Assembly (NCBI RefSeq): GCF_022695985.1
Contig: NZ_JAAPBF010000002.1
Coordinates: forward strand, 1-64,000
Source of the DNA: Streptomyces sp. NP-1717
GTDB taxonomy: Bacteria > Actinomycetota > Actinomycetes > Streptomycetales > Streptomycetaceae
Length of the DNA: 64,000 bases
Direction: 5' to 3'
Positions 2,459 to 64,000 of the stretch are shown piece by piece. A model generated the notes under the pieces. It ran no database searches. It was given only the letters and a program-made list of their open reading frames with translations, and had not been told where the DNA came from. The number at the start of each line of letters is the position of its first letter. Position 1 is the stretch's first letter. The translations under genes and the position numbers were made by a program.

Positions 2459-2586
2459 GTCGTCCATGCCTCCATCGTGCGGCGCCGCCCGTCCCGGTCA
2501 CCCGACACTTGCCGCACCGCCTTTCTCGGGTGCGGCGTTCAGGGCCGCACCTGATTGAATTGATGGTCGGGATCTTGGAGGCGAGC

Positions 2587-28656: not shown

Positions 28657-29517
28657 TCAGGCTTCGGGGTTCCGCGTGAAGGCCCATGCGGACACAGTCA
28701 TCAGCACCACGATCAGAGCGATGCTCGACACCAGCGCGGCGGCCACCGCGCCGCCCGGCTCCCAGCCGAGCGCGAGGTGGCGCGATCCCTCCACGGCGTA
28801 CGTCACCGGGTTCACCCTCGCCACCGCGCCCAGCCAGCCGGGCAGGATCTCGGTGGGAACGAAGGCGCTGGACGCGAACATCAGCGGGAAGCTGACGAAG
28901 AAGCCGACGCTGGCGAGGACGTCAACCTTGCGCAGCCAGACCGCGAGCGCGATGAAGATCCAGATGAGGGACCAGATCACCACCAGCGAGAGCAGCGCCG
29001 CGCCCACCAGCCCCCCGACCCCGCCGGAACAGCTGTAGCCGAACAGCAGGGAGGCGCCGGCGATCAGAATGACGAGGTGGACGACGGAGCGGGTGAGGTC
29101 GGCGAGCGACCGGGCGACGAGGGTGAGCATCAGAGTGAGGGGCAGGACGCGAAAGCGGCGGACCATGCCGCTCTCGATGTCACGCAGGAGCCCGACGCCG
29201 GCCCCCTGTGCCATTCCGATGCCGGTCGTGACCAGCAGCGCGGGCAGGAGGAAGTCGATGTAGTCAACCTGTCGGGGCAGTATGGCCGGGGTCGCCATAC
29301 TGCCGAAGATCTGACTGAACAGGGTGAGCATGATGAGCGGCTGGGCGATACCGGCGAGGATGATCCGGTGGTCGGCGTAGACGATGCGAAGCTGCCGCAG
29401 CGTGAGCACCCACAGTTGCAGCGCCATGCCGCTGCCGCTCCACAGCGGTCCGGACCGTGACGGGGCTTCGCCGCGTGGTGCGGTCCGCGCCGCCTCCCGG
29501 GTCGGTACGGAGGTCAT
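28657..29517 (-). CDS. ABC-2 type exporter permease (DrrB-like)
   Basis: The 286-residue membrane protein has a soluble N-terminal tail of about 35 residues and six hydrophobic segments. It carries the DrrB/NodJ-type region LASVGFFVSFPLMFASSAFV followed by PTEILPGWLGAVARVNPVTY, which contains the conserved PxxxLP and NPVTY motifs. Together with the ATPase in the overlapping upstream gene (ATGA, 29514-29517) it would export the lipopeptide and give self-resistance. In daptomycin and A54145 clusters a similar pair (DptM/DptN type) lies beside the NRPS genes. It is the last gene of the cluster. Confidence 0.9.
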   Translation of the reverse strand: MTSVPTREAARTAPRGEAPSRSGPLWSGSGMALQLWVLTLRQLRIVYADHRIILAGIAQPLIMLTLFSQIFGSMATPAILPRQVDYIDFLLPALLVTTGIGMAQGAGVGLLRDIESGMVRRFRVLPLTLMLTLVARSLADLTRSVVHLVILIAGASLLFGYSCSGGVGGLVGAALLSLVVIWSLIWIFIALAVWLRKVDVLASVGFFVSFPLMFASSAFVPTEILPGWLGAVARVNPVTYAVEGSRHLALGWEPGGAVAAALVSSIALIVVLMTVSAWAFTRNPEA

Positions 29518-30461
29518 ACGGGCTCCTGAACTGAAGTCTGTGCGCCGTCACCGATCAGGGCCAGGTACACGTCGTCCAGCGACGGTTCGCGGTAGCGGAT
29601 CTCCGCGACCTCCTGGCCGGCCGCGTCCAGCAGCCGCACCACGACGGCCAGTTCCGTGGAGGCGACCGCCGGCACGCTCACCGAGCGGTCGTCGTGGTCG
29701 ACGGTGGGCCGCAGTCCGCCGGTCGCCAGCGTGCGGGCGGCCTCGTCCGGGGTGCAGTCACCCGCGAGCCGCAGGAATACCGACCCCGTACAGGTGCTGC
29801 CCTTGAGCTCGGCGGCCGTACCGGAGGCGATGACCTGCCCTTCGCCGAGGACGGTGATCCGGTCGGAGAGCCGGTCGGCCTCGTCCAGGTACTGCGTGGT
29901 GAGCAGGACGGTCGTCCCCGCGGCTGTCAGCTCCTCGACCATGTGCCACAGGGAGCGCCTGCTGGGCAGATCGAGGCCGGTGGTCGGCTCGTCCAGAAAG
30001 AGCACGTCCGGCCGGGAGACGAGCCCGATGGCCAGGTCCAGGCGCCTGCGCATGCCGCCCGAGTAGGTCCTGGCCGGACGGTTCGCGGCGTGCGTCAGAT
30101 CAAAGGCCTCGATCAGGTCGGCGGCACGCTGCCGCGCCTGTCGCCGGGTGGCACCGCTGAGCCGGGCCACCAGGACGAGGTTCCCGGTGCCCGAGAGCGC
30201 CTCGTCCAGCGCGGCGAACTGCCCGGTGACGCCGATCCTGCCGCGGACCGAGCGCGGGTCGCGGGCCACATCGAAGCCGGCGACCTCCGCGCTGCCCGAT
30301 GTGAGCGGGTACAGCGTGGACAGCACGTTGATCAGGGTGGTCTTCCCGGCGCCGTTGTGGCCCAGCAGGCCCAGCACCTCGCCGCGGGACACTTCCAGGT
30401 CCACGCCACGCAGGGCGTGGACCTGGCCGAACCGCTTGTGGATTCCCGTTGTTCGAATCAT
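29514..30461 (-). CDS. ABC exporter ATPase (DrrA-like)
   Basis: The 315-residue ATPase has Walker A GHNGAGKTT, signature YSGGMRRRLD, Walker B VLFLDEPTTGLD and switch text LLTTQYLDEADRL, all in the DrrA form. The C-terminal extension of about 90 residues ends EIRYREPSLDDVYLALIG, the DrrA-type assembly motif. ATG 30461 follows GAGAGGGG and lies 13 bases after the AsnO-like gene. Its product pairs with the permease at 28657-29517. Substrate assignment to the cluster's peptide is by context. Confidence 0.92.
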   Translation of the reverse strand: MIRTTGIHKRFGQVHALRGVDLEVSRGEVLGLLGHNGAGKTTLINVLSTLYPLTSGSAEVAGFDVARDPRSVRGRIGVTGQFAALDEALSGTGNLVLVARLSGATRRQARQRAADLIEAFDLTHAANRPARTYSGGMRRRLDLAIGLVSRPDVLFLDEPTTGLDLPSRRSLWHMVEELTAAGTTVLLTTQYLDEADRLSDRITVLGEGQVIASGTAAELKGSTCTGSVFLRLAGDCTPDEAARTLATGGLRPTVDHDDRSVSVPAVASTELAVVVRLLDAAGQEVAEIRYREPSLDDVYLALIGDGAQTSVQEPV

Positions 30462-30474
30462 GGTGGTGCCCCTC

Positions 30475-31434
30475 TCAGTCGAGCACGTGGCCGAGCGGGG
30501 CGCGCAGCACGCGGGAGCGCCGGTGGTTGAGATGGATGAAGGTGCGGTGCAGCCAGCGGTCACCGCCGTCGTAACGCGGGACGAACGCCGTACGGCCGTG
30601 CAGGGCCACCCGGTTGTCCAGCACGGCGAGGTCCCCGGCGACCAGACGCACCGACTCGGCGACCGTGTCCAGGCATCGTTCCAGGACGCGCGCGGCCCGC
30701 TCGGCCTCGTCGTCGACAGGGCGGGTGGCGTGGAAGTCGACCCGCACGTCCGGGTCGTCGGGGTCCCCGGTCAGGATCGGGTGCGGTTTGGCCGCGCCCT
30801 CCGGCTGCCCGAAGGAGGGTGGCGGGTCGGTGAGGAAGCGCGGCTGGCGCAGCACTTCCCGCGTCCGGTCGTCCAGCCCCTCGACGGCCCTGCGCACCGA
30901 GGCGGTGCGCAGCCCGGCGGTGGACTCGTGGTCGCTGCGTACGCACAGCAGGGTGACGTAGTCGGGGCGCCGCGGGTGGAAGGCGTTCTCCGTGTGGAGG
31001 GCGAGCACGGTGGATCCGGCGTTGCTCTGCTGGGCCTCCTGGCCCGGCACGGGGACCACGTTCTGGACCAAGGCGCCGGATTTCTCGTTCCGGAAGGCGA
31101 TGAGCTCACCCAACTCCATGGAGACCGCGCTGATCACCGACGCGCTCAGGGTGGCGGCCCGTTCGACGGAGTCGGACTCGACCGGCGTCGGCGGTACGTC
31201 GTCCGCGCCGGGCAGGTTGCGCAGCAGCAGCACGCCGTCGGGGCCGGGGTCGTGCCGGAAGGTGCGCAGGCGCTCGCGCAGCCGCGTGGGCAGCCGGCAG
31301 GAGGCGCTGCGGCAGGCCGCCAGCCAGCTCAGCTCGTCCACCAGCGCCGGTCTGGTCTCGGAGAGTCGCGTGGCGAGCCCGCGCAGGCCGGTACTCTCCT
31401 CATGGGTCAGCGCGAAGGTGCTCTCGGGCATCAT
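30475..31434 (-). CDS. AsnO/VioC-type Fe(II)/2-oxoglutarate amino acid hydroxylase
   Basis: The 319-residue oxygenase belongs to the clavaminate synthase-like group that hydroxylates free Asn or Arg at C3. The metal triad is His147 and Glu149 in LALHTENAFHPRRPD and His279 in VALHGRTAFVPRYDG. These are the HTE and distal-His contexts of AsnO of the CDA cluster and of VioC. RWLHRTF supplies the Arg for 2-oxoglutarate. In CDA, AsnO makes 3-hydroxy-Asn, and A54145 also contains hydroxy-Asn. The fourth module of NRPS-2 has an Asn/Asp-type pocket followed by an epimerase, the CDA position of hydroxy-Asn. The start overlaps the FkbM stop (ATGA). Confidence 0.88.
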   Translation of the reverse strand: MMPESTFALTHEESTGLRGLATRLSETRPALVDELSWLAACRSASCRLPTRLRERLRTFRHDPGPDGVLLLRNLPGADDVPPTPVESDSVERAATLSASVISAVSMELGELIAFRNEKSGALVQNVVPVPGQEAQQSNAGSTVLALHTENAFHPRRPDYVTLLCVRSDHESTAGLRTASVRRAVEGLDDRTREVLRQPRFLTDPPPSFGQPEGAAKPHPILTGDPDDPDVRVDFHATRPVDDEAERAARVLERCLDTVAESVRLVAGDLAVLDNRVALHGRTAFVPRYDGGDRWLHRTFIHLNHRRSRVLRAPLGHVLD

Positions 31435-32273
31435 GCGGGGTCGTCCTCCACTGGGCCTCGGCGCCCGGCGCCGTCCTGGCCGGTCGAATGCGTACTGTCT
31501 CGGTGGGCGAAGAGCGAGTGCCGGTCGCTGCCGGCCAGGTCCTCCTCCTGGCCGCTCGCCACGTGGAAGCCGCGGCGCCGCAGCGCCGCGGTCACGCCGG
31601 CGAGCCGGCCCGCGGTCGGGCCCGCGGGGTCGTCGTGCACCTCCATCACGATCTGCCGGACGAGCGGCCAGTGCCGGTCCTCGATGCCGTGCAGCACTTG
31701 CGTCTCGCCGCGCTGGACATCGATCTTGAGTACATCGATCCGGTCGACCGGGTGCTCGTCGAGCACCGCCGACAGCGGGCGCAGCGTGCAGCGGACCGGG
31801 TGCTCGCGGAAGCGGTGGTCGAGAAGCTCGTCGAGCAGCTGGAGCGCTTCCGGCGGCTGTCTCGCGGAGACCACGCGTTGTCTGACGAACGCCTTCTCGC
31901 CCGCGGTGTCCGCGAACGCCCTGCGTGTGGACATCGTGGAGTAGCCGGGGTAGTGGGTGAATTCCGTCTCCTGCTCGCTCTCTGCCAGTCCGTACGGGAA
32001 GACCCGGGTCCGCGCGGAGTGCCGCCGCGTGTTCTCGCGCAGCAGGTCGAAGACGGGCAGGATGGGCTCGAAGGCGAAGACCCGCGCACGCGGACGCTCG
32101 GAGAGGACGAAGAGGCTGTACATGCCGATGTTCGCGCCGACGTCGAAGACCACCGGTGCCTCGGGCAGCAGGAGCCCGGGCGGCTGATACACACGCCGGG
32201 TGAAGATCTCGTCGTAGAGCAGCTCCGTCTCGTGCGGGTTGACGCCTTTCACGTCGGTGAGTGAGATGTTCAT
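31431..32273 (-). CDS. FkbM family methyltransferase
   Basis: The 280-residue SAM-dependent O-methyltransferase has VVFDVGANIGMYSLFVLSER (motif I), RVFAFEPILPVFDLL (motif II) and DVLKIDVQRGETQVL (the LKIDVEG-type FkbM motif). FkbM enzymes methylate hydroxyls of natural products. A54145 contains 3-methoxy-Asp, and its cluster has a comparable oxygenase/methyltransferase pair. Here the gene sits between the SyrP-like and AsnO-like oxygenases, so O-methylation of a beta-hydroxy-Asp or -Asn is the simplest proposal. The C-terminal 20 residues are polar and probably disordered. Confidence 0.88.
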   Translation of the reverse strand: MNISLTDVKGVNPHETELLYDEIFTRRVYQPPGLLLPEAPVVFDVGANIGMYSLFVLSERPRARVFAFEPILPVFDLLRENTRRHSARTRVFPYGLAESEQETEFTHYPGYSTMSTRRAFADTAGEKAFVRQRVVSARQPPEALQLLDELLDHRFREHPVRCTLRPLSAVLDEHPVDRIDVLKIDVQRGETQVLHGIEDRHWPLVRQIVMEVHDDPAGPTAGRLAGVTAALRRRGFHVASGQEEDLAGSDRHSLFAHRDSTHSTGQDGAGRRGPVEDDPA

Positions 32274-32313: not shown

Positions 32314-33276
32314 TCAGTCGGACATGGCGACCAGGACCCGGCGGGACCCGGTGAACGGCCTGCGGCCGTGGGCGACCCGTACGTTGTCGATGAGCAGCAG
32401 GTCTCCTGTGCGCCAGTCGACGTCGATCGCGCACGCCAGGCCGCGGTCGCGGATCTGGAGGACGTACTCGGCGGGGATGGGCGAGCCGTCGGCGAAGGTG
32501 ACCGACTGGGGCAGGTCCGCCTGGGGCAGGGTCTGGAGCAGCGCGGCGCCCGCCTCGTCGCCGAGGGCGGCCGGGTGCCACTGGTCGGCCTGGTTGAACC
32601 AGAGGGTGGACCCGGTCGCCGGGTCCTCCACGACGGCCGGGCGGACCTGCGTGACGCGCAGGCCGCCGCCCGCCTTCCACTCCCAGTCGGTCCCGGCGGA
32701 GCCCAGGTAACGGTCGACCTCGTCGCGGTCCTCGGTCTCGAAGGTCTCCTGCCAGCTCTTGCCGAACCCCCGGCCGCCGTGCAGGTTCTGCGTATAGCGC
32801 AGCCCGTCGGCGAAGGCCTCCCGCACCACGGGATCGAGGGACCGGTACCACAGAGAGGTGTCGACGACCGGAGTGGCGCCGCCGGTCTCGGCCGCCTGCT
32901 GGCAGAAGAACAGCAGGCGCGCGGGCCATCGCGCCGCGTAGGACATCTCGCTGTGCATCGAGATGGTCAGTTCCCGTGGGTACTCGGTGGACGTGTAGAG
33001 GTTCTGGCCGACCTTCGTACGCGGCGAGTTGCCGTGCACGTACGCCAGACGGTCGGCCAGCAGGAGGGGCATGACGCGCTCCAGCGTCTCCGGGGTGATT
33101 GCGAAGCCGCGGAGAACGAGCGCGGCGTGCTCGGCCAGCAGCTCCGCGACGCGTCCGCCGTCGCCGAGCACGTCCGTCAGTCCGTCCGCCGTGGGCGCCA
33201 CGGCCGGGTATCGCGGCGAGATCACCTTGGGCCGCCAGTCGACCGCGGTGCTGCCTGCCTGCTCAGGTGTGTGCAC
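32314..33276 (-). CDS. SyrP-like TauD/TfdA-family hydroxylase
   Basis: The 320-residue Fe(II)/2-oxoglutarate oxygenase has His108 and Glu110 in ISMHSEMSYAARWPARLLFF and the distal His303 in NVRVAHGRRPFTGSRRVLVA, followed by the 2-oxoglutarate Arg. The HSE form, instead of HxD, and the FFC segment after it are those of SyrP, which hydroxylates Asp while it is bound to a peptidyl carrier protein. The likely target is one of the Asp residues loaded by NRPS-1 module 2 or NRPS-2 module 2. The latter is the methoxy-Asp position in A54145. Which Asp is modified cannot be read from sequence. Confidence 0.87.
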   Translation of the reverse strand: MHTPEQAGSTAVDWRPKVISPRYPAVAPTADGLTDVLGDGGRVAELLAEHAALVLRGFAITPETLERVMPLLLADRLAYVHGNSPRTKVGQNLYTSTEYPRELTISMHSEMSYAARWPARLLFFCQQAAETGGATPVVDTSLWYRSLDPVVREAFADGLRYTQNLHGGRGFGKSWQETFETEDRDEVDRYLGSAGTDWEWKAGGGLRVTQVRPAVVEDPATGSTLWFNQADQWHPAALGDEAGAALLQTLPQADLPQSVTFADGSPIPAEYVLQIRDRGLACAIDVDWRTGDLLLIDNVRVAHGRRPFTGSRRVLVAMSD

Positions 33277-33288
33277 GTGCTCTCCTCG

Positions 33289-34332
33289 TCAGTTCTTCGT
33301 CCCGGTCGCCAGCAGGGCGACACGTGGCAGTTCGGCCCGGAAGCGGGCCCCGGCACGGTGGACGGTGAGGTCCCGTACGGCACCGGGGGCGTCGTACGGC
33401 AGGTCGGCGTCGGTGTAGCGGAAGATGTCGCGCAGCATGCACAGCACCGTGTCGCGCGCGTCCGCGCGGCTCTGTGCGGCCTCGGTGATGAGGGCGAGGC
33501 CGTACATGTCGGTCATGTAGTCGGCGAGGCCCGCCAGCGCCTCCTCCTCGCTGTCGCCCTCGATCACGACGGGGTCGTACATCCGGTCCGCCTCGACGTC
33601 CGCGAACCCGGCCGATTCCAGGTAGCCGCGCATCTCCTCCGCCGTGAAGTGCGGGTAGGCGTGTCCGGCCCGCGAGTAGGGGGCGACCGCCTCCCGGAAC
33701 CAGCGCGCCACCGCGGAGCGCTCGTCGAAGTCGTGCAGCGCGACACGCCCGCCGCGGCCCAGGCAGCGGTACGCCTCCCGGAGGGCGGCCGGACGGTGCC
33801 CCACCTCCAGGTGGTGGGTGCCGTAGGCGAGCAGGACACCGTCGAGCACACCGTCACGGTGCAGCAGACTGTGTGCCTGCTGGCGGACCGCGGGCAGGCC
33901 GCGATCCAGGGCCGACCTGACCATGCCGGCGCTGACGTCACCCGTGATCAGGGGCACCGGGCCGGAGTTCCGGGCACCGCTCATGCCGCGCCACACACGG
34001 GTGAGAAGGCCGTCGCCGCCCAGTACGTCCAGGACGCGGCTCAGCGCGGCGTGGTCGGGGCCCGCCAACTCGGTGAAGAGACGTGCGATGCCCTGGCGGC
34101 GGGCTCCGTCGGCGCGCTGGGCCCGGCGGTAGGAGTCGCCGCGGCCGCCGTTGTCGTCGGTGTCGAATTCGTTGCGCCCTTCCAGCCAGCGCGCACCGGT
34201 TAGGGCAGCCATCCGGGCGGGGTCGAGGAGTTCGGCGACGTGCTGGTGGTACTCCTTCATGTGCTGCTCGTAGTCGTGCAGCGACATGCCGGGCAGGTAG
34301 CGGGTGTCGGTCCCTTGTGCCGTACCGCTCAT
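33289..34332 (-). CDS. SAM methyltransferase, candidate GlmT/DptI-type for 3-methylglutamate
   Basis: The 347-residue protein has a helical N-terminal region (MSLHDYEQHMKEYHQHVAEL) and a class I core. LSRVLDVLGGDGLLTRV is the SAM glycine loop, PLITGDVSAGMV the second strand region and LLAYGTHHL the motif IV position; FDERSAVARWFREAV follows. Length and context agree with GlmT, DptI and LptI, which methylate 2-oxoglutarate on the way to 3-methyl-Glu in CDA, daptomycin and A54145. The Glu-type pocket of NRPS-3 module 1 fits. The assignment to that group rests on context and general layout, not on an alignment. The start overlaps the previous stop (ATGA). Confidence 0.78.
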   Translation of the reverse strand: MSGTAQGTDTRYLPGMSLHDYEQHMKEYHQHVAELLDPARMAALTGARWLEGRNEFDTDDNGGRGDSYRRAQRADGARRQGIARLFTELAGPDHAALSRVLDVLGGDGLLTRVWRGMSGARNSGPVPLITGDVSAGMVRSALDRGLPAVRQQAHSLLHRDGVLDGVLLAYGTHHLEVGHRPAALREAYRCLGRGGRVALHDFDERSAVARWFREAVAPYSRAGHAYPHFTAEEMRGYLESAGFADVEADRMYDPVVIEGDSEEEALAGLADYMTDMYGLALITEAAQSRADARDTVLCMLRDIFRYTDADLPYDAPGAVRDLTVHRAGARFRAELPRVALLATGTKN

Positions 34333-35198
34333 GCGGATGCCTCCTTCGTCGCGGGTCGGATGTCGCCGGCGGGCACTCTCACGCCACCCGGTGTGGTCTG
34401 CCGCTCGGCGAGGAACTCGAGCACGAGCGCGTTGACCTCGTCGGGACGTTCCAGGTAGCCGTAGTGGCCGCACCCCTCGACCAGCCTGAAGTCGCAGTCG
34501 GGAATGGCTTGGGCGACCTCGCGGCCCAGGTGGGGCGGGCAGACGAGGTCGTCCGCGAAGCCGAGGACCCGGCAGGGCACGGAGACGTCGCGGTAGGCGG
34601 CGAGCCGGTCGGGGAAGGCGCCGAGGCCGATCTGCACGCGGGTGCCGGAACCGTCGTCGCCGGCGAGTTCGAAGAGCTCCAGCCAGTCGGCGGCCCGCCG
34701 GTCGTCGTCGAGGGTGCGCGGTGAGAGATTCTGCAGGGCCTTCATCGCGGCGTCGTAGGCGGCGGGCAGCCGCACTCCGCTGTCCCGGATCGCGATCTCC
34801 GCGTCGAGGGCTGCCCGCCGGGTGCGGTCCAGCCGGCCGCGGGTCGCCATGAGCAGCGCACCGCGGACCAGATCGGGCCGGGCCAGGGCGAGTTCCGTCG
34901 TGACGCGCGCGCCCAGGGAGGTACCGACGACGAGCGCGGGTCCGGCACCGAGGTGCTCGATGAGACCGGCCGTGTCGGTCACCATGTCGTCGATCGTGAA
35001 CGGCCCGACGCCGCGCGTGGCTCCCACGCCCCTGTTGTCGAAGGTGACCGCGCGGAACCCCGCACGGGTGAGCGCGCCCACCTGGTGCAGATGCCAGGCG
35101 CGTCCCGCGGCACCGGTACCCATGACGAGCACCACCATCGGCCCGTCTCCGGTGCTGTTGTAGTGCAGCGGGATCCCGTTGATCTCCGCAGTCGGCAT
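34329..35198 (-). CDS. Alpha/beta hydrolase, probable cluster-associated editing thioesterase
   Basis: The 289-residue hydrolase has a complete catalytic triad. Ser94 lies in LVVGTSLGARVT, the Asp candidate in GFADDLVCPP and the His in VEGCGHYGYLERPDEV. VVLVMGTGAAGRAWHLHQV provides the oxyanion HG-like loop in altered form. In the daptomycin and A54145 clusters a comparable hydrolase (DptH type) follows the MbtH gene, where it is viewed as a type II thioesterase. The same order holds here. It could also be a general esterase. A hairpin at 35283-35316 lies upstream. Confidence 0.82.
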   Translation of the reverse strand: MPTAEINGIPLHYNSTGDGPMVVLVMGTGAAGRAWHLHQVGALTRAGFRAVTFDNRGVGATRGVGPFTIDDMVTDTAGLIEHLGAGPALVVGTSLGARVTTELALARPDLVRGALLMATRGRLDRTRRAALDAEIAIRDSGVRLPAAYDAAMKALQNLSPRTLDDDRRAADWLELFELAGDDGSGTRVQIGLGAFPDRLAAYRDVSVPCRVLGFADDLVCPPHLGREVAQAIPDCDFRLVEGCGHYGYLERPDEVNALVLEFLAERQTTPGGVRVPAGDIRPATKEASA

Positions 35199-35322: not shown

Positions 35323-35559
35323 TCAGCTCGGGGTGGAGCCGGTCCGCTCGTGCTCCTCCATCGCCCTGACCAGGCTGTTGGGGCGCATGTCGGTCCAGTT
35401 GGTCTCGATGTGGTCGAGGCACTCCTGCCGTCCGGAATCCCGCACGACCGCCTTCCAGCCGTCCGGGATCTCCACGAACGCGGGCCAGAGCGAGTACTGA
35501 CCCTCGTCGTTCACGAGCACGTGGAAGGTGCCTTCCGGGTCTTCGAAGGGGTTGGTCAT
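35323..35559 (-). CDS. MbtH-like NRPS accessory protein
   Basis: The 78-residue protein shows the MbtH signature in full: [33 protein letters not shown], the Cys-containing [14 protein letters not shown] and SLVRAME. The Trp, Pro and Ser residues that hold adenylation domains are all present. It binds and activates adenylation domains of the neighbouring NRPSs in the cytosol. It starts 3 bases after the NRPS-3 stop, so it is made together with them. Daptomycin and A54145 clusters have the same protein at the same place. Confidence 0.96.
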
Positions 35560-35562
35560 CTC

Positions 35563-38500
35563 TCATACCTCTTGCTTCTTCTCGGAATGTCCCCGCAGGG
35601 CTTTCATCTGCTGAGCCAGGACGTGGCCGACCTGCGCGGCCGACTCCGGCTCGGTGAGCATGGACTTGTGTTCCGCGTCGATGCCGTGGACCTCGACGCC
35701 GCCGCCGGTGTGGGGCAGCCAGGAGTCCGGCGTGCGGCCGGGGCGTGCCGCGCGGGTCCTGTCGGCGGTGAGGTGGAGGATGCGGGCCCGCACCCGGCCG
35801 GGGACGAAGGCGCGCATGAGCCGGACGTTGTTGACGTACACGTCCTTGGCGGCGAGGAGTTCCTCGTCCTCCAGGTACGCCATCGAATCGTCCTGGTCCT
35901 GGAGGAAGGCGCGGAACCGGGCGAGGGGGAAGCGCCCCTCCCCGATCTCGTCGTCGGAGAACTCGAATCCGGCGGCGCGCAGGTTGTCCGCGACGATCTC
36001 GGCCGCGGTGGGCTCCCCGACCGCCGGGTCGCGGTCCTCGACGGGGTAGGAGTCGAGCATGGCGAGCAGCTCGACCTCCTCGCCCTCGGCCTCCAGCAGC
36101 TCGGTCATGGCGTGGGCTATGTGGCCGCCGAGCGACCAGCCGAGAAAGCGGTAGGGGCCGCCGGGCTGCACGGAACGGACGAGCCCCACGTACTCGGCCG
36201 CCATCTCCACCAGGGTGGCCGGCAGACCGTCCCCGCCGGGTCCGGGGGTACGAGCCTGGATCGCGTGGAGCGGCGTGTCGGAGGTCAGATGGGTGAGCAG
36301 CGGCGCGTAGCACCAGCCGAGCCCGGCGCCCGGGTGCAGGCAGAACAGCGGGGGTTCGGCACCGCGCTCGCGCAGCGCCAGCATCCGCAGCGGCGCGCGC
36401 CGTTCCGTCGCGCCGTCGATACGGGCGGCGAGCCGCGCGACCGTAGGGGCCTGGAAGAGGTCGCGTATGCCCAGCTCCGGCGCGCCCAGCCGGGAGCGGA
36501 TGCGGGAGACGAGCCGGATGGCGAGCATCGAGTGCCCGCCCGACTCGAAGAACCCGTCGTCGATGCCGATCAGGTCGATGCCGAGGACCTCCGCGAACAG
36601 CTCGCAGAGCAGCGCCTCGCGCTCGGTGCGCGGCGGGTTGCCGGTGCCGCCCTGGTGGCCGGGTGCGGGCAGGGCGCGGCGGTCGAGCTTGCCGTTGGGC
36701 GTGACCGGCAGCGTGTCCATGGGGACGAAGACCGAGGGGACCATGTAGTCGGGCAGTTTCGCCTCGGCGTACCGGCGCAGGGCGGCGAGGTCGGGTGGAG
36801 CGGCGTCGCGGCCTGGCGTCACGTACGCGACGAGCCGCTTGTCCCCCGGGCGGTCCTCGCGGACCAGCACCGCGGCCCGCGCGATCTCCGGGCGCGCGGC
36901 GAGCACGTTCTCCACTTCCCCCGGTTCCACCCGGAAGCCGCGCAGTTTGACCTGGTGGTCGAGTCGGCCCAGGTGGTGCAGCGCGCCGTCCTTGTCCCAC
37001 CGTACGAGGTCGCCGGTGCGGTACATCCGCTCGCCGGGGGCGCCGAAGGGGCAGGCCACGAAGCGCTCGGCGGTGAGCCCGGGCCGATTGCCGTAGCCGC
37101 GCGCGAGACTGCGGCCGGCGATGTACAACTCGCCCGGTACACCGGGGGGCACGGGCCGCAGCGCGGTGTCGAGGACGTACACGCGCGCGTTGCGGATCGG
37201 CGTGCCGACGGATGGCGTGGCGGGCCAGGAGTCCACGTCCGCCGGCAGGTTGGCGACGGTGACGACGTGGGTCTCGGTTGGCCCGTAGTGGTTGTACAGC
37301 CGCAGCGCGGGGTTGCCGCGGTGCAGGGAGCGGACCGGCTCGCCGGCGGTCAGCGTCTCGCCGCCCTGGACCAGGCCTGTCAACGCGGGCAGCGTGGTGC
37401 CCAGTTCCCCGGCCGCCTCGCACACGGCCTCGACCATCAGGTTGGGGGCGTACAGCTCGGACACCTGCTGGGCGTCCAGCCAGCGGACCAGCTCCACCGG
37501 GTCCCGGCGCAGCTCGTCGTCCGGGATCACGAGGCAGCTGCCCGAGGTGAGGGCGGCCAGGGTCTCCTGCGCCGATACGTCGAAGCCGATGGCCGCGAAC
37601 TGCGCGATGCGGTGGCCGGGGCCGCGGGGCACCGTCTCGGCGTACCAGGCGAGGAGGTTGGCGAGTGCGCCACCGGACATGGTGACGCCCTTGGGGCGGC
37701 CGGTGGAGCCGGAGGTGTAGATGACGTACGCGAGGGAGTCCGGGTGCGGTGGCGAGAGGCGGTCGGCGTCCGTCGGGTCCGTGGCGGGCAGCTCGGCCAG
37801 TGCCCGGCGCGTCTCCGTAGCCCCGGGAAGCAGCACGGGCGTAGCGGGTGCCGTGTCGGTGAGACCGGCGGCGAGTTCGGCGGTCGTGACGAGCAGCCCG
37901 GGGCCGGCGTCCGCCAGCATGTACGTGAGGCGGTCCGGGGGGTATTCCGGGTCGAGCGGCAGGTAGGCGGCGCCTGTCTTGAGGACGGCGAGGATGGCGG
38001 TGACCAGGTCGGCGGAGCGGGGCAGGAGCAGGGCGACGGTGGACTCGGGGCCGACGCCGCGGCTGATCATCAGCCTGGCCAGTCGGTTGGCGCGGCTGTT
38101 CAGCTCGCTGTAGTTCAGCCGCTCGCCGGGCGCGATGACGGCCGGCGCCTCGGGGTCCCGCGCGGCGCGCTCTTCGAACATCTCCGGCAGCGAGGCGCCG
38201 GCAGGGGGACGTGCCGTGTCGTTCCAGCGGCTGAGCACGCTGTCTCGTTCCTCGCCCGAAAGGATCTCCGCCCGGCCGATGGTCCGGCGCGGGTCCGCGG
38301 TGACGTCGGCCAGCAAGCGGTGGAAGCGGGTGAGGAGACCGGTGGCCGTGTCACGGTCGAACACATCGGTGCTGTACTCCAGGGACAGGGCGATGCCGGT
38401 TGCCTCTCCTTCCTCGTCGTAGGACTCGACGAAGGACAGGAGCAGGTCGAACTTGGCGGTGGCCGACTCGACGGGCTGCGGGCTCACCGTGACCCCCGGT

Positions 38501-41500
38501 ACTCCCCCGTTCTGGCCGGAGAGCTGCGCCTCGGTGTTGTTGCAGGTGAGCGCGGCCTGGAAGAGCGGGTGCCGGGAGAGGGTGCGGTCGGGGTTGAGCC
38601 GCTCGGCCAGCCGCTCGAACGGCAGGTCCTGGTGCGCGTACGCGGCGAGAGCCGTCTCCCGGACCCGTCCGACCAGTTCGCCGAACGACGGGTCGCCGGA
38701 GGTGTCCACGCGCATGACGAGCGTGTTGACGAAGAAGCCGACCAGTTCCTCCAGCGCGTCGTCGGTGCGGCCGGCGACGGGGGTACCCAGCGGGATGTCG
38801 TCGCCGGCGCCCATCCGGCTGAGGAGGGCCGCGAACGCGGCCTGCACGACCATGAACACGCTGGCTTGGTGAGTACGGGCCAGCTCGGCCGTCCGGGTGT
38901 GCACGCCGGGACCGGTCTCGGCGAAGACCTGCGCCCCGGTCTGGGTGGAGACGGACGGCCGGGGCCGGTCGAAGGGCAGGGTCAGCTCCTCGGGAAGGCC
39001 GCGCAGGGCCTCCTCCCAGTAGGCGAGCTGGGCGGCGCCGACACTGCCGGAGTCGTCCGGGTCGCCGAGGAACTCCCGCTGCCACAGGGCGTAGTCGGCG
39101 TACTGGACGGGCAGCGGCCGCCAGCCGGGGGCCGCGCCCGCGGAGCGCGCCCGGTAGGCGGTGAGCAGGTCGCGCAGGAGCCGCTTGGTGGACCAGCCGT
39201 CGCCGGCGATGTGGTGCACGACGAGGACGAGGACGTGCGCCTCGGGACCGGCCGCGAACAGCCGGGCACGCAGCGGGAACTCGCCCGCCAGGTCGAAGGA
39301 GTACGCGATGGCCTCGGCGACCGCCGCGTCCATGCCGTCCTCGGGTACGTCACGGGCGTCGAGCAAGGGGCGCGCCTCGACCGGTGTGGCGATGACCTGG
39401 TACGGCCCCTGCTCGTCCTCCTCGTAGCGGGTGCGCAGGCTCTCGTGCCGGGCCACGACGTCCTCGAGGGCGGAGCGGAGCGCGCCGGCGTCGAGGGCGC
39501 CGTCGAGGCGCAGGGTCGCGTGGATGTTGTACGTGGGGCTCGGGCCGTTCAACTGGTGCAGGATCCACAGCCGCTGCTGCGCGTGGGAGAGCGGGACGCG
39601 CTCGGGACGCGGGACCGGCCGTACGGATGGGCGGACGGCGTGGGAGGTGTCGAGGAGTCCGGCGAGAGCGCCGACCGTCGGGTTCTCGAACATCTGCTTG
39701 ATGGACAGTTCGACGTCGAGTGTCGAACGGACCCTGCTCACCAGTCTGGTGGCGAGGAGTGAGTGGCCGCCGAGCGCGAAGAAGTCGTCATCGATGCCGA
39801 CCTGGGGCCGGCGCAGGATCTCCGCGAACAGTCGGCAGAGGATCTCCTCACGGGGCGACCTCGGAGCACGCCCGGCGCGGGTCGCGTCATCCGGGCGCGG
39901 CCGGGGCAGCGCGCCGCGGTCGATCTTTCCGTTGGGGGTCAGCGGCAGCGCGTCGAGCCCGACGTACAGCGCGGGCACCATGTGGGCGGGCAGTGAACGG
40001 TGCAGGTGGGCGGTCAGGTCGTCGGTTCCGGGGAGGCCGTCGGGTCCGGTGCCGGCCGTGGTGGGAACGATGTAGGCGACCAACCGCGCGTGGGCCGGGT
40101 CGTCCTCCTCGGTGACGACGACGGCGGCCCGCTCCACCACGGGGTGTGCGGCCAGCGCCGCCTCGATCTCGCCGGCTTCGATCCGGAAGCCGCGCAGGTT
40201 GATCTGGGTGTCGGTGCGGGCGATGTACTCCAGGGCGCCGTCGGCGTTCCAGCGGACGAGGTCGCCGGTGCGGTACATCCGCTCACCCGGCGCGCCGAAC
40301 GGGCAGGCCACGAAGCGCTCCGCGGTCCCCGCGGGCCGGTGGACGTAGCCGTGCGCGACGCCTTCGCCGGCCACGTACAGCTCGCCGGGGACACCGGCGG
40401 GCACGGGCCGGAGGCCGGAACCGAGCACGTACAGGCGGGTGTTCCACACCGGCCGCCCGATGGGCACGGGCCCGTCCGGGGTCGGGTCGCCGGGTGCCAG
40501 CCGGTGTTCGGAACAGTTGACGGTCGTCTCGGTGGGGCCGTAGACGTTGTAGACCGTGACACCGGGGTGGTCCGCGCGCCAGCGGCGCAGCGGAGCGCCG
40601 AGAAGCTGCTCGCCGCCGAAGGTGATGGCGCCGGTGGGGCAGACCCGGCCGGGCAGGGTGTCGAGCAGCGTGAGGTGGCTGGGGGTCGCCTTCATGAAGT
40701 CGGGCGGCGCCTCGTCCGGCCCCAGCACCGGGTCGTCCTCCAGCGACGCGAGGCGTACGCAGCCGCCGCTGATGAGCGGGACGTACAGCGCGCCCACGGT
40801 GAGGTCGAAGGACACCGGAGAGTGCACGAGGGCGCGCCCCGTGGCGGGGTATTCGCCCGCGGCACGCAACAGATAGCCCACCAGAGAGCGGTGCGCGACG
40901 ACGACGCCCTTGGGCCGGCCGGTGGAGCCGGAGGTGTAGATGACGTACGCGGGGTGGGCGGGCAGCAACGGCGCGAGGCGGTCCGCGTCGAGGACGGAGC
41001 CGTCCTCGACCGAGCCCCGGGCGGCGGTCTCGCGTGGGTCGTCCAGCACCACCACGGGACACTCGGTGGCGGGGAGCAGGGGGGCTGCCGCGGTGTCGGT
41101 GAGTACGAGCAGCGGCCGGACGTCGTCGAGCATGAAGGCGACGCGCTCGGGCGGGTATTCGGGGTCGACGGGCACGTAGGCGGCGCCGGTCTTCATGACG
41201 GCGAGGGCGGCGAGCACCAGCTCCGGCGAGCGGGGCAGCGCCACGGCGACGTTCGTGCCGGGGCCGGCGCCGCGTCCGATGAGCACCCGGGCCAGCCGGT
41301 CGGACTCCGCCGCCAGCTCCCGGTAGGTCAGCGTCCGCTTCGCGGTCGCCACGGCCGGGCTGTCGGGGGTGCGGGCGGCCTGGCGGGTGAAGAGCTGCGG
41401 CAGGGTGACGTCCTCGACCTCGCGGGCGGTGTCGTTCAGCCCGTCGATGAGGTGGACGCGCTCATCGGGGCTGAGGACGTCGACGCGCCCGGTGGGCAGG

Positions 41501-42779
41501 CCGGGATCGGCGACGAAGACGTCGACCACCCGCAGGAGCCGGTCGCGAAGGGCCGCGGCAGCCGCGGGATCCACGGCGGAGGGGCGATGGCCGATACGGA
41601 ACCGCAGGGGCGGTCCCGGCGAGGCGAGCAGGCACAGCGGGTAGTGCATGGCGTCGCGCATGCCGGTACCGGTGATCCGCAGTGGGCCGCGCCCGGGCGC
41701 GGCGACCGGGTCCGGGGCCCCGGAGGGCGCCGACGGGTAGTTCTCGAACGCCATCACGGAATCGAACAGTTCGGGGTGCCCGGTCTGGAGCTGGATGTCG
41801 GCGAGCCGGTGGTGCTGGTGGTCGAGCAGAGCGGTCTGCTCGACCTGGAGCCTGCGCAGGAACGCGTTCAGCGGCTCGTGTGCCCGGGTGCGGACGCGCA
41901 GCGGGAGGGTGTTGACGAACAGCCCGATCATGTTCTCGACGCCGTCGAGTTCGGGCGGGCGGCCGGAGACGGTCACTCCGTAGACGACGTCCTCGCGACC
42001 GGTGGCCCGGCCGAGCACCAGCCCCCACAGGCCCTGGACCACGGTGTTGAGGGTGACCCCGGTTCCGCGCGCCAGCCGGACCAGCGCCTCGGAGGTGTGC
42101 TCGGGCAGCGCGAAGCCGAGCCATGCGGGGGCCTCGGCGGCCCGGGGTGCCCGCGGCGCGACGAGGGTGGGCCCGTCGAGGCCGGTGAGCGCCGCGCGCC
42201 AGGCGGACTCGTCCGCGGCGCCGTCGCGCGCCGCCAGCCACCCGAGGTAGTCCCGGAAGGGGCGTACCGGAGGCAGCGCCGCGGGGTCGCCCGAGGACCG
42301 GTACAGGGTCATGAGTTCACGCAGCAACAAGGGCATCGACCAGCCGTCGAGCACGATGTGATGGTTGGTGAGGGCGAACCGGTACCGGTCGTCGGCCAGC
42401 CTCAGCAGCAGAAAGCGCACCAGCGGCGGCCGGGAGAGCCGGAAGCGGCGCCAGCGATGCTCGTCCAGCGCTTCGCGCGTCGTCTCCTCGGGATCGGCGG
42501 CCTGCCGCAGGTCGAGCTCCTCCCAGGGCGGCTCGACCTCGTGGGGCACGAACTGCACCGGGGACTTGGCGGCCTGGACGGAGAAACCCGCGCGCAGGTT
42601 GTCGTGTCGGCGCAGCAGCGTGGCGACGGCGTTCCGCAGGGCGGTGACGTCGAGGGTGCCGCGCAGGTCGACGACCGTCTGGACGGTGTAGACGTCCGGT
42701 TCGTCCTCGGTGTAGCTGCTGTGGAAGAGCAGCCCTTCCTGGAGAGGGGTGAGGGGCAGGACGTCCTTCAGGGATCGGC

Positions 42780-42783
<4 letters not shown>
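35563..42783 (-). CDS. NRPS-3, terminal two modules (C-A-PCP-C-A-PCP-TE; Glu-type, Pro-type)
   Basis: The 2406-residue synthetase starts at ATG 42783, overlapping the NRPS-2 stop. Module 1 has a condensation domain ([10 protein letters not shown] about residue 142) of the DCL subtype, since [12 protein letters not shown] follows and NRPS-2 ends in an epimerase. Its adenylation domain (TSGSTG about 615) has pocket residues DLGKTGVVN plus Lys, the Glu/3-methyl-Glu type, and its PCP has GGHS about 1004. Module 2 has an LCL condensation domain ([10 protein letters not shown] about 1193) and an adenylation domain (about 1688) with pocket DVQYVGHVV plus Lys, closest to proline or pipecolate types. 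Its PCP is at about 2083. The thioesterase has Ser in GWSLGGH (about 2217), an Asp in [11 protein letters not shown] and a His in DAEHKSML (about 2371), and should cyclise and release the peptide. Confidence 0.95.
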
Positions 42784-58612
<15,829 letters not shown>

Positions 58613-58613
<1 letters not shown>

Positions 58614-61600
58614 CAGGGATTCTCCGACCGCGACATCCGTCGCAACGCGGGGCGGGCTGTTCGTACGGGGGCGGCTGCCAGCCGGCCGGCCAGTCCGGCG
58701 ACCGTGCGGGTCTCGAACACGGCGCGCACGTCGAGTTCGACGGCCAGCTCCGACCTGATCCTGTTGGTCAGGCGGGTGGCGAGCAGGGAGTGCCCGCCCA
58801 GGGAGAAGAAGTCGTCGTCGACGGTCACCTCGGCCACGCCCAGGATCTCGGCGAAGATCGCGCACAACGCCTCCTCGCGGCCGTCGCGGGGTGCCCGCCC
58901 AGGACCGCGGCCCGATTTCGGCGGGGCCGGCAGGGCACGGCGGTCGAGCTTGCCGTGCGCCGTCAGCGGGAGGTCGTCGAGCAGGACGACGGCCGTCGGC
59001 GTCGTGTAGGCGGGCAGCCGCGCGGCGATGTGCCGCAGGAGGCCGGCGGGGTCGGGCGCCTCGGCGGCCGGTACGGGCACGGCGTACGCGGTGATCCGCT
59101 GGTCGCCGGGCTCGTCCTCGCGGACGGCCGCGGCGGCGCGGGCGACGGCCGGGTGAGCGGTGAGGGCCGCTTCGATCTCACCCAGCTCGACACGGAAGCC
59201 CCGCACCTTGACCTGTCCGTCGGCGCGGCCGACGAATACCAGAGCGCCGTCGGGGAGGCGGCGCACGAGGTCGCCGGTGCGGTACATCCGCGTACCCGGC
59301 CCGCTGTACGGGTCGGCGACGAAGCGTTCCCCGGTGTGCCCCGGCCGCCCCAGGTAGCCGCGCGCCGTCCCGGGGCCCGAGACGTACAACTCCCCCACCA
59401 CGCCGGCCGGGACCAGGGCGAGCCGGCCGTCCAGCACGAGCATCCGCACGCCCGGGTGGGGCCGCCCGAAGGGCACCGGCCCCTCGGGCACGTCGGCGCC
59501 GGGCGGAATCCGGTGCTCGGCACAGTTGACCGTGAGTTCGGTGGGTCCGTACGCGTTGACGACATGGGCGCCGGGATGGGCGTCCCGCCAGACCCGCAGG
59601 GCCCGGCCGGTCAGCGCCTCACCACCGAGAACCAGCGTCCCGTCGTCGGCCAGCGCGTCGGGCAGCGCCTCCAGCAGCGGCAGGTGGGAGGGAGTGGCCT
59701 TGGTGAACGAGGCCCGCAGCCCGGCCGCGCCGTCGAGTTCGCCGAGGACCGCGCAACCGCCGGCCGCGAGCGGGGTGAACATCGTCGTGACGGTCAGGTC
59801 GAAGGTGAGCGGGGAGTGCAGCAGGGCGGTGCCGGCCGCGTCGGGATACCGCTCACCGGCGCCGTCGACGTAGCCGGACAGCGCGTCCCGCGAGACCACC
59901 ACGCCCTTCGGCCGCCCGGTGGAGCCCGAGGTGAACAGGACGTAGGCGGCATGGGCACCGTGGACGGGCCGCACCGGCCGGAACTCCGCGCCGGTCGCCG
60001 GGCGCGTGAGGTCGTCGGCCCAGTCCCCGGCTCCGAGTACGGGCACCCCGTCGAGGCCGCCCAGGTCCGCGGCGTCCGTGCCACCGGGGACGAGCACCAG
60101 CCGCGGGGCCGCCTCGGCGAGCACGGCGCTCAGCCGCTCGCGCGGCCACGCCCGGTCCAGCGGTACGTACGCCGCACCCGCCTTGAACGCGCCCAGCAGC
60201 GCGGCCAGTACCTCGGGGCGGCGCGTGGCCACCACGCCGACGGTGTCATCGGCGCCGATGCCGCGGTCCGCCAGCAGCCGGGCCACCCGGCCGGCGGCGG
60301 CGTCGAGTTGCGCGTAGGTCAGTTCGCCGCCGGTCCAGCGCACGGCGGTGCGCCCGGGGTCGCGCGCGGCCCGTGCCGCGACGGCGTCGGTGAGCGGAGC
60401 CGGCGTCCGGGACAGAGGCGGTCCGCCGGCCTGGTCCAGGAGCCGGTCCCGCTCACCCGGCAACAGCACGTCCACCTCGCCGACGGGAGTGCCCGGCTTG
60501 CCGAGCACCTGCTCCAGCACACGGAGCAGCCGGTGCGCGAGGGCGTCGGCGGTGTCCTGGTCGAAGAGGTCACGGCTGTACTGGAGCACGCCGCCCAGCG
60601 CGCCCGTACCGGTGTCCGCGGGCGAGATGACGAGAGACAGATCGAACTTCACGCTCCCGGTCTCCACCGGGTACGCGGAGACCTCGATCCCGGGAAGCGT
60701 GTCGAGCCCGGCGGGTGGCGTGAGGCCCTCGAAGTCCTGGAAGGCGAGCGAGACCTGGAAGAGCGGGTGCCGGGACAGCGAGCGGGCGGGGCTCAACTCC
60801 TCGACCAGCCGCTCGAAGGGCACATCCTGGTGGGCGTAGGCGTCGAGGTCGGTCTGCCGGACCCGCTCCAGCAACCGATGAAACGTGGGGTCGCCCGACA
60901 GGTCGTTGCGGAGCACCAGCGTGTTCACGAACAGCCCGACCACGTCCTCGACCGCGGTGTCCGTGCGGCCCGCGACGGGGGTGCCGAGCGGGATGTCGTC
61001 GCCCGCGCCCAGCCGGAACAGCAGCACGGCGACGGCCGCCTGGAGCACCATGAAGGGGGTGGTGCCGGTGTTCCCGGCCAGGTCCCGCAGCCGCTGGTGG
61101 TCGGCGGCGGGGATCTCGAACCGGGCGGCGCCGCCGCGATGGGAGGGCTCGGCGGGGCGCGGCCGGTCCACGGGCAGCGCCAGCTCCTCCGGCAGACCGG
61201 CCAGCCGCTCCTTCCAGTGGGCGACCTGGTCGGCGATCACCCCGGCCGGGGCGCCGGGCGCGCCGTCGGGGTCACCCAGGACTTCGTGCTGCCACAGCGT
61301 GTGGTCGGCGTACTGGACGGTCGGGGGCGGGGAGAGCGGCGGTGAGGCATCGGCGCCGTCCGCCGTGTGAGCGGCGTAGCGGGCCGCGAGGTCGCGTGCG
61401 AGGGGACGGAGCGACCAGCCGTCCGCGGCGATGTGGTGGAGGACCAGGATCAGCACATGGTCACGCTCGTCGGTGCCCGCGCCCGCCCGGTACAGGCCGT
61501 ACCGGATCGGCAGGTCGTGTCCGAGGTCGAACGGCAGGGCCACCGCCCGCGCGAGCGCCGCGTCCAGGTCCCCGCCGGCGCCGGACCCGAGAGCCCGCGG

Positions 61601-64000
61601 GAGCAGTCCGGCGGCCGTGTCCGGGGGGAGGACGACCTGATGCGGTCCCCGCTCGTCCTCGGCGATGACCGTACGCAGTGCCTCGTGCCGGACCACGACG
61701 TCGGTGAGGGCCCGGTGCAGCGCCGGTACGTCCAGTTCGCCCTTCAGCCGCACCGCGAGCGGCACGTGGTAGCCGGCGTTCCCGCCCTGGAGCTTGTGCA
61801 GGAACCAGAGGCGACGCTGGGCGAAGGACAGGGGGACGCGTGCCGGGCGGAGGCGCTTGCGTGTCACGGGAGGGCGGCCGGGTCCCGCCCGGGTGAGCAG
61901 GCGGGCCAGGCCGGAGGGGGTGGGCGCCCCGAACATCTCGCGGACGCTGATCTCCGTCTCCAGGGTGCCCCGGACGCGGCTCACCAGCCGCATGGCGAGC
62001 AACGAATGCCCGCCGAGGGCGAAGAAGTCGTCGTCGGCGCCCACCTCGGGTACTCCGAGGACTTCGCGGAACAGCCCGCACAGGATCTCTTCCTGCGGGG
62101 TACGAGGGGCACGCGGGGTGGCGCTCGTACCGGTCTGCGGGGCGGGCAGCGCCGCCCGGTCGCGCTTGCCGCTGGCCGTGCTCGGCAGCTCGTCGAGGAC
62201 GACGAGGGCCGAGGGCACCATATGGCCGGGCAGCCGTTCGCGCAGGTGACCCAGCACGGCGGCGGCGTCGGGAGCCGCCCCGCGCGCGGGCACGATGTAG
62301 CCGACGAGGCGCGGACCGGCGGCACCGTCGTCCCGTACGGTCACGACGGCATCCGTGACCTGGGGGTGGGCCGCGAGGGCGGCCTCGATCTCGCCCGGTT
62401 CGATCCGGAACCCGCGCAGTTTCACCTGGTCGTCCGCGCGGCCCAGGAACTGGAGGTCCCCGTCCGGCAGCCGCCGCACCAGGTCGCCCGTGCGGTACAT
62501 CCGCGCGCCCGGCTCGCCGAAGGGGCAGGCGACGTACCGCTGGGCGGTGAGGCCCGGTTGCCGCCAGTAGCCGCGGGTGAGCTGGGCCCCGGCGAGGTGC
62601 AGTTCGCCGACGGTGCCGTCCGGTACGGGTTGCAGCCCGCCGTCCAGTACGTAGGCGCGGGTGCCGGGCAGCGGCCTGCCCATCGGCACCGGGTCCTCGC
62701 CGCCGTCCAGGAACCGGGCCGTGGCATAAACGGTGCTCTCGGTCGGCCCGTACGCGTTGACGAGGCCGGCGTCCGGGTATCGCGCGCGCAGCTCCCGCAC
62801 CAGCGAGGCCGGGGCCGCCTCCCCCGCCAGGACGATCGTGCCGACGTCCGGTGTCGCACCACGTTCCAGGAGCGCGGCGAGGGCGGACGGCACCGCGCAC
62901 AGCAGGTCGCCACTCGCGCCGGGGCCTCCTTCGCCGACGGCCAGCAAGTCGTCGGCGATGTCGATCCGGCCACCGGACAGCAACGGCACCAGCGTGTCGA
63001 ACACCGAGACGTCGAAGCTCTCCGAGGTGGCGGCCACGGCCGAGCGCAGACGTTCCGCGCCGAATCCGGTACGCGCCCAGGACAGCAGCGCCGCCACCTG
63101 GGCGTGCTCGACGACCACGCCCTTGGGCCGGCCGGTGGAGCCGGAGGTATGGATGAGGTACGCGGCGTGGCCGGGCAGCAGTGGTGCGGACCGCTCGGCG
63201 TCCGTCAGGGACAGCGGGGAGTGGTCGGCGAGCGTCTCCTCGTCGAGGACGATCCGCTCGGCACCAATCGGCTCGTCCGGGGACCAGGACACCTCGTCCG
63301 GCCGGTCGGTGAGGACGCAGTGGGCCGCGGTGTCGGCGAGCAGGAACGCCACCCGGTCCGGCGGGTGGTGGGCGTCGACGGGAACGTAGCAGCCGCCGGC
63401 CTTGAGCGTGCCGAGCAGCGCGACAGGGAGCCAGTGCGAGCGGGAGACGGAGACGGCCACCCGGCTCTCGGCGCCGACACCCCGGTCGCGCAGCAGCCGC
63501 GCGAGCCGGTTGGCGCCGGCGTCGAGCTCGCCGTACGTCAGCGATCGCGTACCGCACCGGACAGCGGGTGCCCCGGGGTCGCGGCGGACCTGGTCCTCGA
63601 AAGCGGCCACCATCGTCGTGACGGGTTCGGCGAGCGGCCCCCCGTCGCCGCGCGCGGCAAGCTCGCGCCGCTCGTCCTCCGGGATGCCGGTCACTCTCGC
63701 GGTGGGGCGTTCCGGTGCCTCGGCGACCGTGGCGAGGATGTTCCGCAGCCGCCCGGCGAGCCGGGCCGCCGTCGCCCCGTCGATCGCGTCGCTCCGGTGG
63801 TCGAGCCGCAGGCGCAGGGCGGTGCCGGGCAGAGCGCAGAGGTGGAGCGGGTAGTGGGTGGTGCTCGTGCCGTGCCCGCCCTCGGCCCGCAGTCCGGCGT
63901 GGTCGGACCGCGCGAGGGTGCCCAGGTCGTCCACCGGGAAGTTCTCGAAGGCCATGGAGGTGTCGAAGAGTTCCGTCAGGCCCGCCCGGCGCTGCACGTC
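58613..64000 (-). CDS. NRPS-1 (partial at its 5' end): ...C-A-PCP-C-A-PCP (Ala-like, Asp)
   Basis: The gene runs off the right edge; 1795 codons are visible. First comes the end of a condensation domain with [13 protein letters not shown], a feature of the DCL condensation domains in this cluster, so the residue added before should be a D-amino acid. Then an adenylation domain (HTSGSTG near 63155) with pocket DVFCVAAVY, small and Ala-like, and a PCP (GGHS near 62015). Next an LCL condensation domain ([10 protein letters not shown] near 61428), an adenylation domain (FTSGSTG near 59935) with pocket DLTKVGAVN, Asp type, and a PCP (GGHS near 58795). There is no epimerase before the stop. The Asp provides the first residue of the Asp-X-Asp-Gly motif completed by NRPS-2. 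Loading and N-terminal modules lie outside. Confidence 0.94.

Follow-up and report, generated by a model that had tools for sequence, protein, structure and literature searches.

Which amino acid closes the ring of the lipopeptide predicted from this Streptomyces locus is the question raised by the last adenylation (A) domain of its synthetase, whose pocket looks like that of a proline activator while the assembly line around it largely resembles that of A54145. The window, by which we mean the whole stretch of DNA analysed, spans the opening 64 kb of a contig of 109,469 bases in a genome of 8.03 Mb and 460 contigs, and the remainder of the contig was also read. Window and remainder together encode a nonribosomal peptide synthetase (NRPS) of 13 modules over four genes, split 5-2-4-2, which is the split of the A54145 synthetase itself.

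The synthetase and the pocket of module 13

The genes and domains of the window on which the argument draws are as follows.

58613..64000, minus strand: NRPS gene B (LptB-like), modules 6-7, running beyond the window to contig position 65020
42780..58865, minus strand: NRPS gene C (LptC-like), modules 8-11, with E-like domains after modules 8 and 11; bounds of the open reading frame, start unrefined
35563..42783, minus strand: NRPS gene D (LptD-like), C-A-T-C-A-T-TE by Pfam; stop at 35563, probable start at 42783
39784..41403, minus strand: module 12 A domain, DLGKTGVVN, the A54145/taromycin 3-methylglutamate (3mGlu) code
38239..39600, minus strand: module 13 condensation domain (C13), overall nearest the A54145 type, its first part not
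36649..38235, minus strand: module 13 A domain (A13), pocket DVQYVGHVV plus Lys, core of apparent proline-type ancestry
37261..37581, minus strand: module 13 pocket residues 235-331; Gly301 is GGC at 37363-37365, Val330 is GTC at 37264-37266
36688..36690, minus strand: Lys517 codon
36394..36633, minus strand: module 13 carrier (T) domain
35566..36363, minus strand: thioesterase (TE), 58-61% identical to the A54145-type TE
35323..35559, minus strand: MbtH-like protein, 71-73% identical to those of A54145-like loci
34329..35198, minus strand: alpha/beta hydrolase, presumably in the LptH/DptH position
33289..34473, minus strand: methyltransferase, probable 3-methylglutamate enzyme; annotated start probably too early
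32314..33276, minus strand: TauD-family dioxygenase, presumably LptJ-like
31431..32273, minus strand: FkbM-family methyltransferase, presumably LptK-like
30475..31434, minus strand: clavaminate-synthase/AsnO-like oxygenase, presumably LptL-like
29514..30563, minus strand: ABC transporter ATPase, DrrA family
28657..29517, minus strand: ABC transporter permease, DrrB-like

The codes of the thirteen A domains read, in module order, DAYCVAAVE, DMAKVASVN, DLTKVGDVN, DFWSVGMVH, DILQLGVIW, DVFCVAAVY, DLTKVGAVN, DADDAGTVD (or DAWDAGTVD, depending on the alignment), DLTKIGAIN, DILQLGLVW, DLTKVGDVS, DLGKTGVVN and DVQYVGHVV, and those of modules 7 to 10 may, by analogy with A54145, spell Asp-basic-Asp-Gly, a form of the calcium motif Asp-X-Asp-Gly. 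Condensation-family domains assigned as E-like from their position and low Condensation score follow modules 2, 8 and 11, and module 5 contains a methyltransferase domain (Pfam) that fits the expected sarcosine, a residue found in A54145 (PMC9113097). Upstream of the NRPS genes lie an acyl-carrier-like open reading frame and a fatty-acyl-AMP ligase; downstream the MbtH-like, hydrolase, methyltransferase, TauD oxygenase, FkbM methyltransferase and AsnO-like oxygenase genes and the ABC pair follow in series. We also observed, in L002 9765-18747 on the upstream side of the fatty-acyl-AMP ligase, genes for a DAO-Rieske protein, an SDR, a polyprenyl synthase, a UbiA prenyltransferase and an FAD oxygenase.

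In the second A domain of gene D the pocket consists of D235, V236, Q239, Y278, V299, G301, H322, V330 and V331 with K517, in what we take to be GrsA numbering, at columns placed by motif anchors rather than by alignment to GrsA. Re-reading of the codons returned exactly the pocket that an earlier note on this DNA had reported, DVQYVGHVV plus Lys with Val299 and Gly301; the note had placed it at 37100-37900, which holds the pocket codons (37261-37581) and just misses that of Lys517. In relatives, the codes read at these columns agree with those published, namely DGLFVGIAV in the A54145-type locus G391, DGWAVASVC in the CDA type and DVQYVAHVV in the friulimicin/laspartomycin type. The proline code listed for friulimicin and laspartomycin, DVQYVAHVVK (PMC9113097, Table 7), differs from the DVQYVGHVVK found here solely at position 301. 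A13 thus combines a DVQ..AHVV-type pocket, with Gly301 as its one change, with a place in the proline clade (see below), both of which are expected of a proline-activating domain, and the domains of gene D look intact by Pfam (AMP-binding 5.9e-158 over two copies, TE 6.2e-29).

Placement of the line and ancestry of its last A domain

Searches with the TE, one in 199 and one in 392 congeneric genomes, recovered two A54145-like loci, G391 and G082. The terminal codes of G391, DLGKTGVVN and DGLFVGIAV, are the A54145 pair given in Table 7 of PMC9113097, and those of G082 are DLGKTGVVN and DGLFAGVAV (DGLFAGVVT for the last in another alignment). The line is collinear with that of G082, the positional partner being the best match for 10 of the 13 A domains at 61-76% identity. 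The module 1 A domain, which lies beyond the window (contig C112, about 82050), is 53% identical to its G082 counterpart, and that of module 13 only 48%; the module 11 A domain (45644 region) is matched best by another G082 module (55%) and not by its positional partner, and may also have been exchanged. Accessory genes stand in the same order in G082 and G391 at 54-73% identity, the methyltransferase excepted, and the TauD-, FkbM- and AsnO-like (lptJ/K/L-like) genes beside the NRPS are collinear and 63-71% identical in both. The methyltransferase (33289-34473) is 39-40% identical to the G082 and G391 homologues, which sit elsewhere, and 55% identical to that of the daptomycin-type locus G156, and is a second mosaic element. 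The mismatches of the module 13 A domain and the methyltransferase make this an A54145-like cluster with more than one mosaic part: the 13 modules in four proteins, the 5-2-4-2 split and the 3mGlu code of module 12 are those of an A54145-type line, and module 13 carries DVQYVGHVV where an Ile/Val code would be expected.

The identity profile of gene D was compared chiefly with G391, since the gene D frame of G082 (L017) is broken and its first part is absent from the profile. In sliding comparisons the core of A13 (38013-37264) shares 39% identity with LptD of the A54145-type locus G391 against 54-57% with three friulimicin/laspartomycin-type proteins, whereas both C13 (62% to the A54145 type against 57-58% to the proline type) and the TE (61% against 44-45%) lean the opposite way. 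Informative sites switch in the same manner, with 19-24 for the A54145 side against 62-66 for the proline side in the core and 67-69 against 24-28 in the TE (Fisher, core against TE p<1e-9, core against C13 p 3e-6 to 6e-5). In module 12, C and T are nearest A54145, and the identity of the A domain is 65% to the A54145 type and 63% to the daptomycin type. Since the first part of C13 (windows 39543-39274 and 39363-39094) is equally near or nearer to the proline-type lines, the boundaries of the exchange are soft and the exchange may be old or repeated; the identity differences between the two sides are moderate.

A quick tree built from 40 A domains, in which only the side of the split is settled, places A13 on the proline-type side (32 proline-type rows against 8 others, SH-aLRT 99), which bears out the view of the earlier note that a proline-type domain stands here where related lines have Ile/Val, Trp or Kyn. 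No A domain more than 61% identical to A13 came up as a candidate donor, the best other match in the pocket search of 392 genomes being 59%. Profile and tree together are best read as indicating that A13, or at least its substrate-binding core, is a natural replacement of the A54145 Ile/Val domain by a proline-type domain.

Gly301, residue 330 and the choice of imino acid

Gly301 is present in 4 of 29 distinct DVQ/DIQ..H domains, A13 included, in a set gathered mainly through similarity to the A13 pocket and cleared of duplicates by hand. The other three (G197, G016 and G036) belong to clusters with a 4-methylproline cassette, and a further search added another Gly301 DVQ.GH domain in G337. 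The GriE-like genes of the first three have the griselimycin leucine hydroxylase as their best match of known structure (7.5e-105, 1.4e-102 and 1.1e-94, respectively), that of G337 is 52% identical to the G197 gene, and all four adjoin a zinc alcohol dehydrogenase; the G016 cassette and A domain are at the ends of separate contigs and are only presumably linked. In griselimycin, such a pair of hydroxylase and alcohol dehydrogenase (GriE/GriF) makes the 4-methylproline precursor (PMC5676206). Gly301 was counted in 5 of 7 cassette-linked proline-type domains against 0 of 10 controls, and a residue other than Val at 330 (Leu or Ala) in 6 of 7 against 0 of 10, with codes entered by hand, control genomes read for part of their proline-like matches and controls G309, G178 and G167 limited by contig ends; G197 with G016 and G036 with G337 look like same-cluster pairs, so that Fisher values on these counts overstate the evidence. 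None of 13 Ala301 genomes has a PhyH match within 250 kb of the A domain on the same contig, distances being judged by eye and several limited by contig ends.

One cluster, that of G197 (L024, 1466 and 12265), holds two proline-type A domains identical at 471 of 520 positions, which differ mainly in a block spanning 301-330 and again towards the C-terminus. The second of them reads Ala301/Val330, the cassette adjoins, and the two look like a natural near-isogenic pair for proline and 4-methylproline. Proline-type codes also accompany the GriE-like genes of G245 and G005 (DPQYAGLAA and DIQFAAHAV, the latter with Ala301). Twenty genomes have GriE-like genes, and the surroundings were read in 18, G072 and G171 (40-41% identity) being left out; since the stretches read in 13 of these 18 contain no A domain of the proline type, a GriE-like gene alone is no marker of such a domain. 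GriE-like genes of 52-53% identity were observed near DLF..GLAC A domains in G064, G090, G219, G158 and G001 (L073, L076, L078, L081 and L089).

These pockets suggest a two-residue rule, in which positions 301 and 330 together would separate 4-methylproline from proline pockets, a discrimination at which, by the griselimycin authors' account, the predictor they used fails (PMC5676206). A13 has Gly301 and keeps Val330, the residue of all 10 controls lacking a methylproline cassette nearby, and we regard Gly301 as a suggestive, not decisive, sign of a substituted proline. An equation of Gly301 with the channel residue of the lincomycin type was rejected: LmbC G308 (V306 in CcbC) is the seventh of the eight code letters in PMC3874040, counted here as position 330.

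As for precursors, a search of the genome at 1e-55 found no GriE-like gene, and on the contig neither a GriE-like nor a GriF-like gene was found; a search based on GriE would miss the unrelated leucine hydroxylases LdoA and EcdK, described as about 13% identical to it. A PhyH search of the genome gave only an EctD-like gene (L029) and one weak match. L029 was rejected as a GriE, its best match being ectoine hydroxylase, and window positions 1658-2467 were rejected as a leucine hydroxylase, the PhyH match being weak (1.7e-6) and no leucine hydroxylase of known structure matching at E<=1. PF02423, the OCD/mu-crystallin family that includes the lysine cyclodeaminases, has no match in the genome and matches in 8 of 14 control genomes. 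Neither a GriE/GriF-type cassette for 4-methylproline (GriE sought in the genome, GriF on the contig) nor a PF02423 lysine cyclodeaminase for pipecolate was thus found.

We consider it probable that the terminal module of this A54145-type 13-module line has had its A domain replaced by a proline-type one, which would most likely load L-proline, and that the TE would close the ring between Pro13 and Thr4. With Val330 retained and neither a GriE-like gene nor a PF02423 match found in the genome, plain proline is a better bet than methylproline or pipecolate. A preference of A13 for 4-methylproline or a different 4-substituted proline, supplied by enzymes unlinked to the cluster and giving a ring closed by a substituted proline, is conceivable but unlikely: Gly301 is common to malacidin MlcM (DVQYVGHAIK) and to most of the cassette-linked domains, and in griselimycin, proline is accepted even by the A domains with a preference for 4-methylproline (PMC5676206), but in 6 of those 7 domains and in MlcM residue 330 is Leu or Ala where A13 has Val, and neither a GriE-like gene in the genome nor a GriF-like one on the contig was found. 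The idea that Gly301 admits a substituted proline therefore survives as far as the recurrence of this residue in 4-methylproline clusters and MlcM goes, and falters on the residue 330 changed there and kept here and on the failure to find a GriE-like gene in the genome. There is a similarly small chance that an intermediate pocket, Gly301 with Val330, was captured through the A-domain replacement and would take proline and 4-methylproline according to supply, giving a 4-substituted-proline ring; griselimycin A8 prefers 4-methylproline and still yields mostly the proline product, an outcome that feeding of 4-methylproline shifts (PMC5676206).

The remaining readings appear fainter still. Pipecolate or another six-ring imino acid, which the earlier note had also thought admissible, would profit from a pocket enlarged by Gly301, and two proline-like domains with DFQFLGVAV, which we take to be a pipecolate code, have Gly301 as well; in these pockets, however, Phe occupies 236 and 278 and the His322 that A13 keeps is absent, and with PF02423 unmatched in the genome we hold this reading highly improbable. 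Vertical descent of A13 from the A54145 Ile/Val domain, with a proline-like code reached by point changes, agrees with the A54145-like TE and most of C13, but some 250 core residues and not the pocket alone are nearer the proline-type domains, among which the tree also places A13, and such descent is hardly to be expected. An inactive module or cluster, or a skipping of module 13, either of which would deprive the code of chemical consequence, is quite improbable: the cluster is known here from its genes alone, but the open frames are long, C-A-T-TE is complete by Pfam and the accessory genes match those of G082 and G391.

The predicted product, its family and known systems

Returning to L-proline as the preferred substrate of A13, the order and codes suggest that fatty-acid loading and the first twelve residues would be as in A54145. 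A13 would, from its code and clade, adenylate L-proline and load the last carrier, C13 would join the 3-methylglutamyl chain to it, and the TE, assuming that it accepts the prolyl thioester, would close the ring on Thr4, which is the ring-closing residue of A54145. The likely product is an A54145-like lipopeptide with its ring closed via L-Pro13, the ring of A54145 being ten-membered (PMC9113097). If it exists, it offers a test of whether a 3mGlu lipopeptide stays active with proline ring closure. In the laboratory, a dptD deletion has been complemented with whole lptD or CDA PSIII genes, altering the last residue of daptomycin (PMC9113097); the natural exchange is seemingly finer than such gene swaps, affecting only the A-domain core while the A54145-type TE and most of C13 were kept, and engineering could take its approximate boundaries, about 38.1 to 37.0 kb, as a template.

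Eight relatives with a 3mGlu-type code in the penultimate module were readable, and they end in an Ile/Val code in two cases (G391 and G082), a Trp code in five (G118, G136, G277, G246 and G260) and a Kyn code in one (G156), never in a Pro code; G156 was drawn from the looser search of 199 genomes, and G150, one of 19 genomes in the TE search of 392, was left out, its match lying at a contig edge. In Table 7 of PMC9113097, a pairing of 3mGlu and Pro is absent from all 30 rows, and the open-licence PMC literature, mostly as titles and abstract openings, yielded neither a 3mGlu-Pro or Pro13 family member nor a mention of the exact code DVQYVGHVV. Proline ring closure had been proposed as new for the family, but friulimicin, laspartomycin/glycinocin, malacidin and telomycin already end in Pro (Baltz 2021, PMC9113097). 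The contrast with Trp, Kyn, Ile or Val at the last place accordingly holds in the 3mGlu subfamily (eight loci) and not across the wider calcium-dependent lipopeptides, where Pro is common, and the novelty of closure through proline would be confined to the 3mGlu members covered here.

The cluster is a variant within a known antibiotic family, not a new kind of machine. With A54145 (lptABCD, Streptomyces fradiae type) it shares the 3mGlu code at module 12, the nearest TE and, as judged from G082 and G391, the order of modules and of the TauD/FkbM/AsnO-like genes; it differs in having DVQYVGHVV where A54145 has DGLFVGIAV (Ile/Val), in its divergent module 1 domain and in a methyltransferase with its best match in a daptomycin-type locus. 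Friulimicin/amphomycin and laspartomycin/glycinocin (PstD, LpmD) likewise have a proline-type last A domain, DVQYVAHVV or DVQYIAHVV, with a core 54-57% identical to that of A13, but theirs is a Val-Pro ending in a differently organised line with a TE of 44-45% identity, whereas 3mGlu-Pro is predicted here. Malacidin MlcM matches in Val299 and Gly301 of a DVQY.GH.. pocket and in a Pro-type last residue, called Pro for the code DVQYVGHAIK in PMC9113097, while 4-methylproline is among the residues reported for malacidin/cadaside (PMC12650660); it is unlike A13 in Ala330 and Ile331 and in belonging to a Val-Pro and not a 3mGlu-Pro dimodule. CDA PSIII and daptomycin DptD, finally, have the C-A-T-C-A-T-TE layout and place 3mGlu before the last residue as this line is predicted to do, but that residue is Trp or Kyn, and the A13 core is only 41% identical to the CDA-type domain of G246 and 36% to the daptomycin-type domain of G156.
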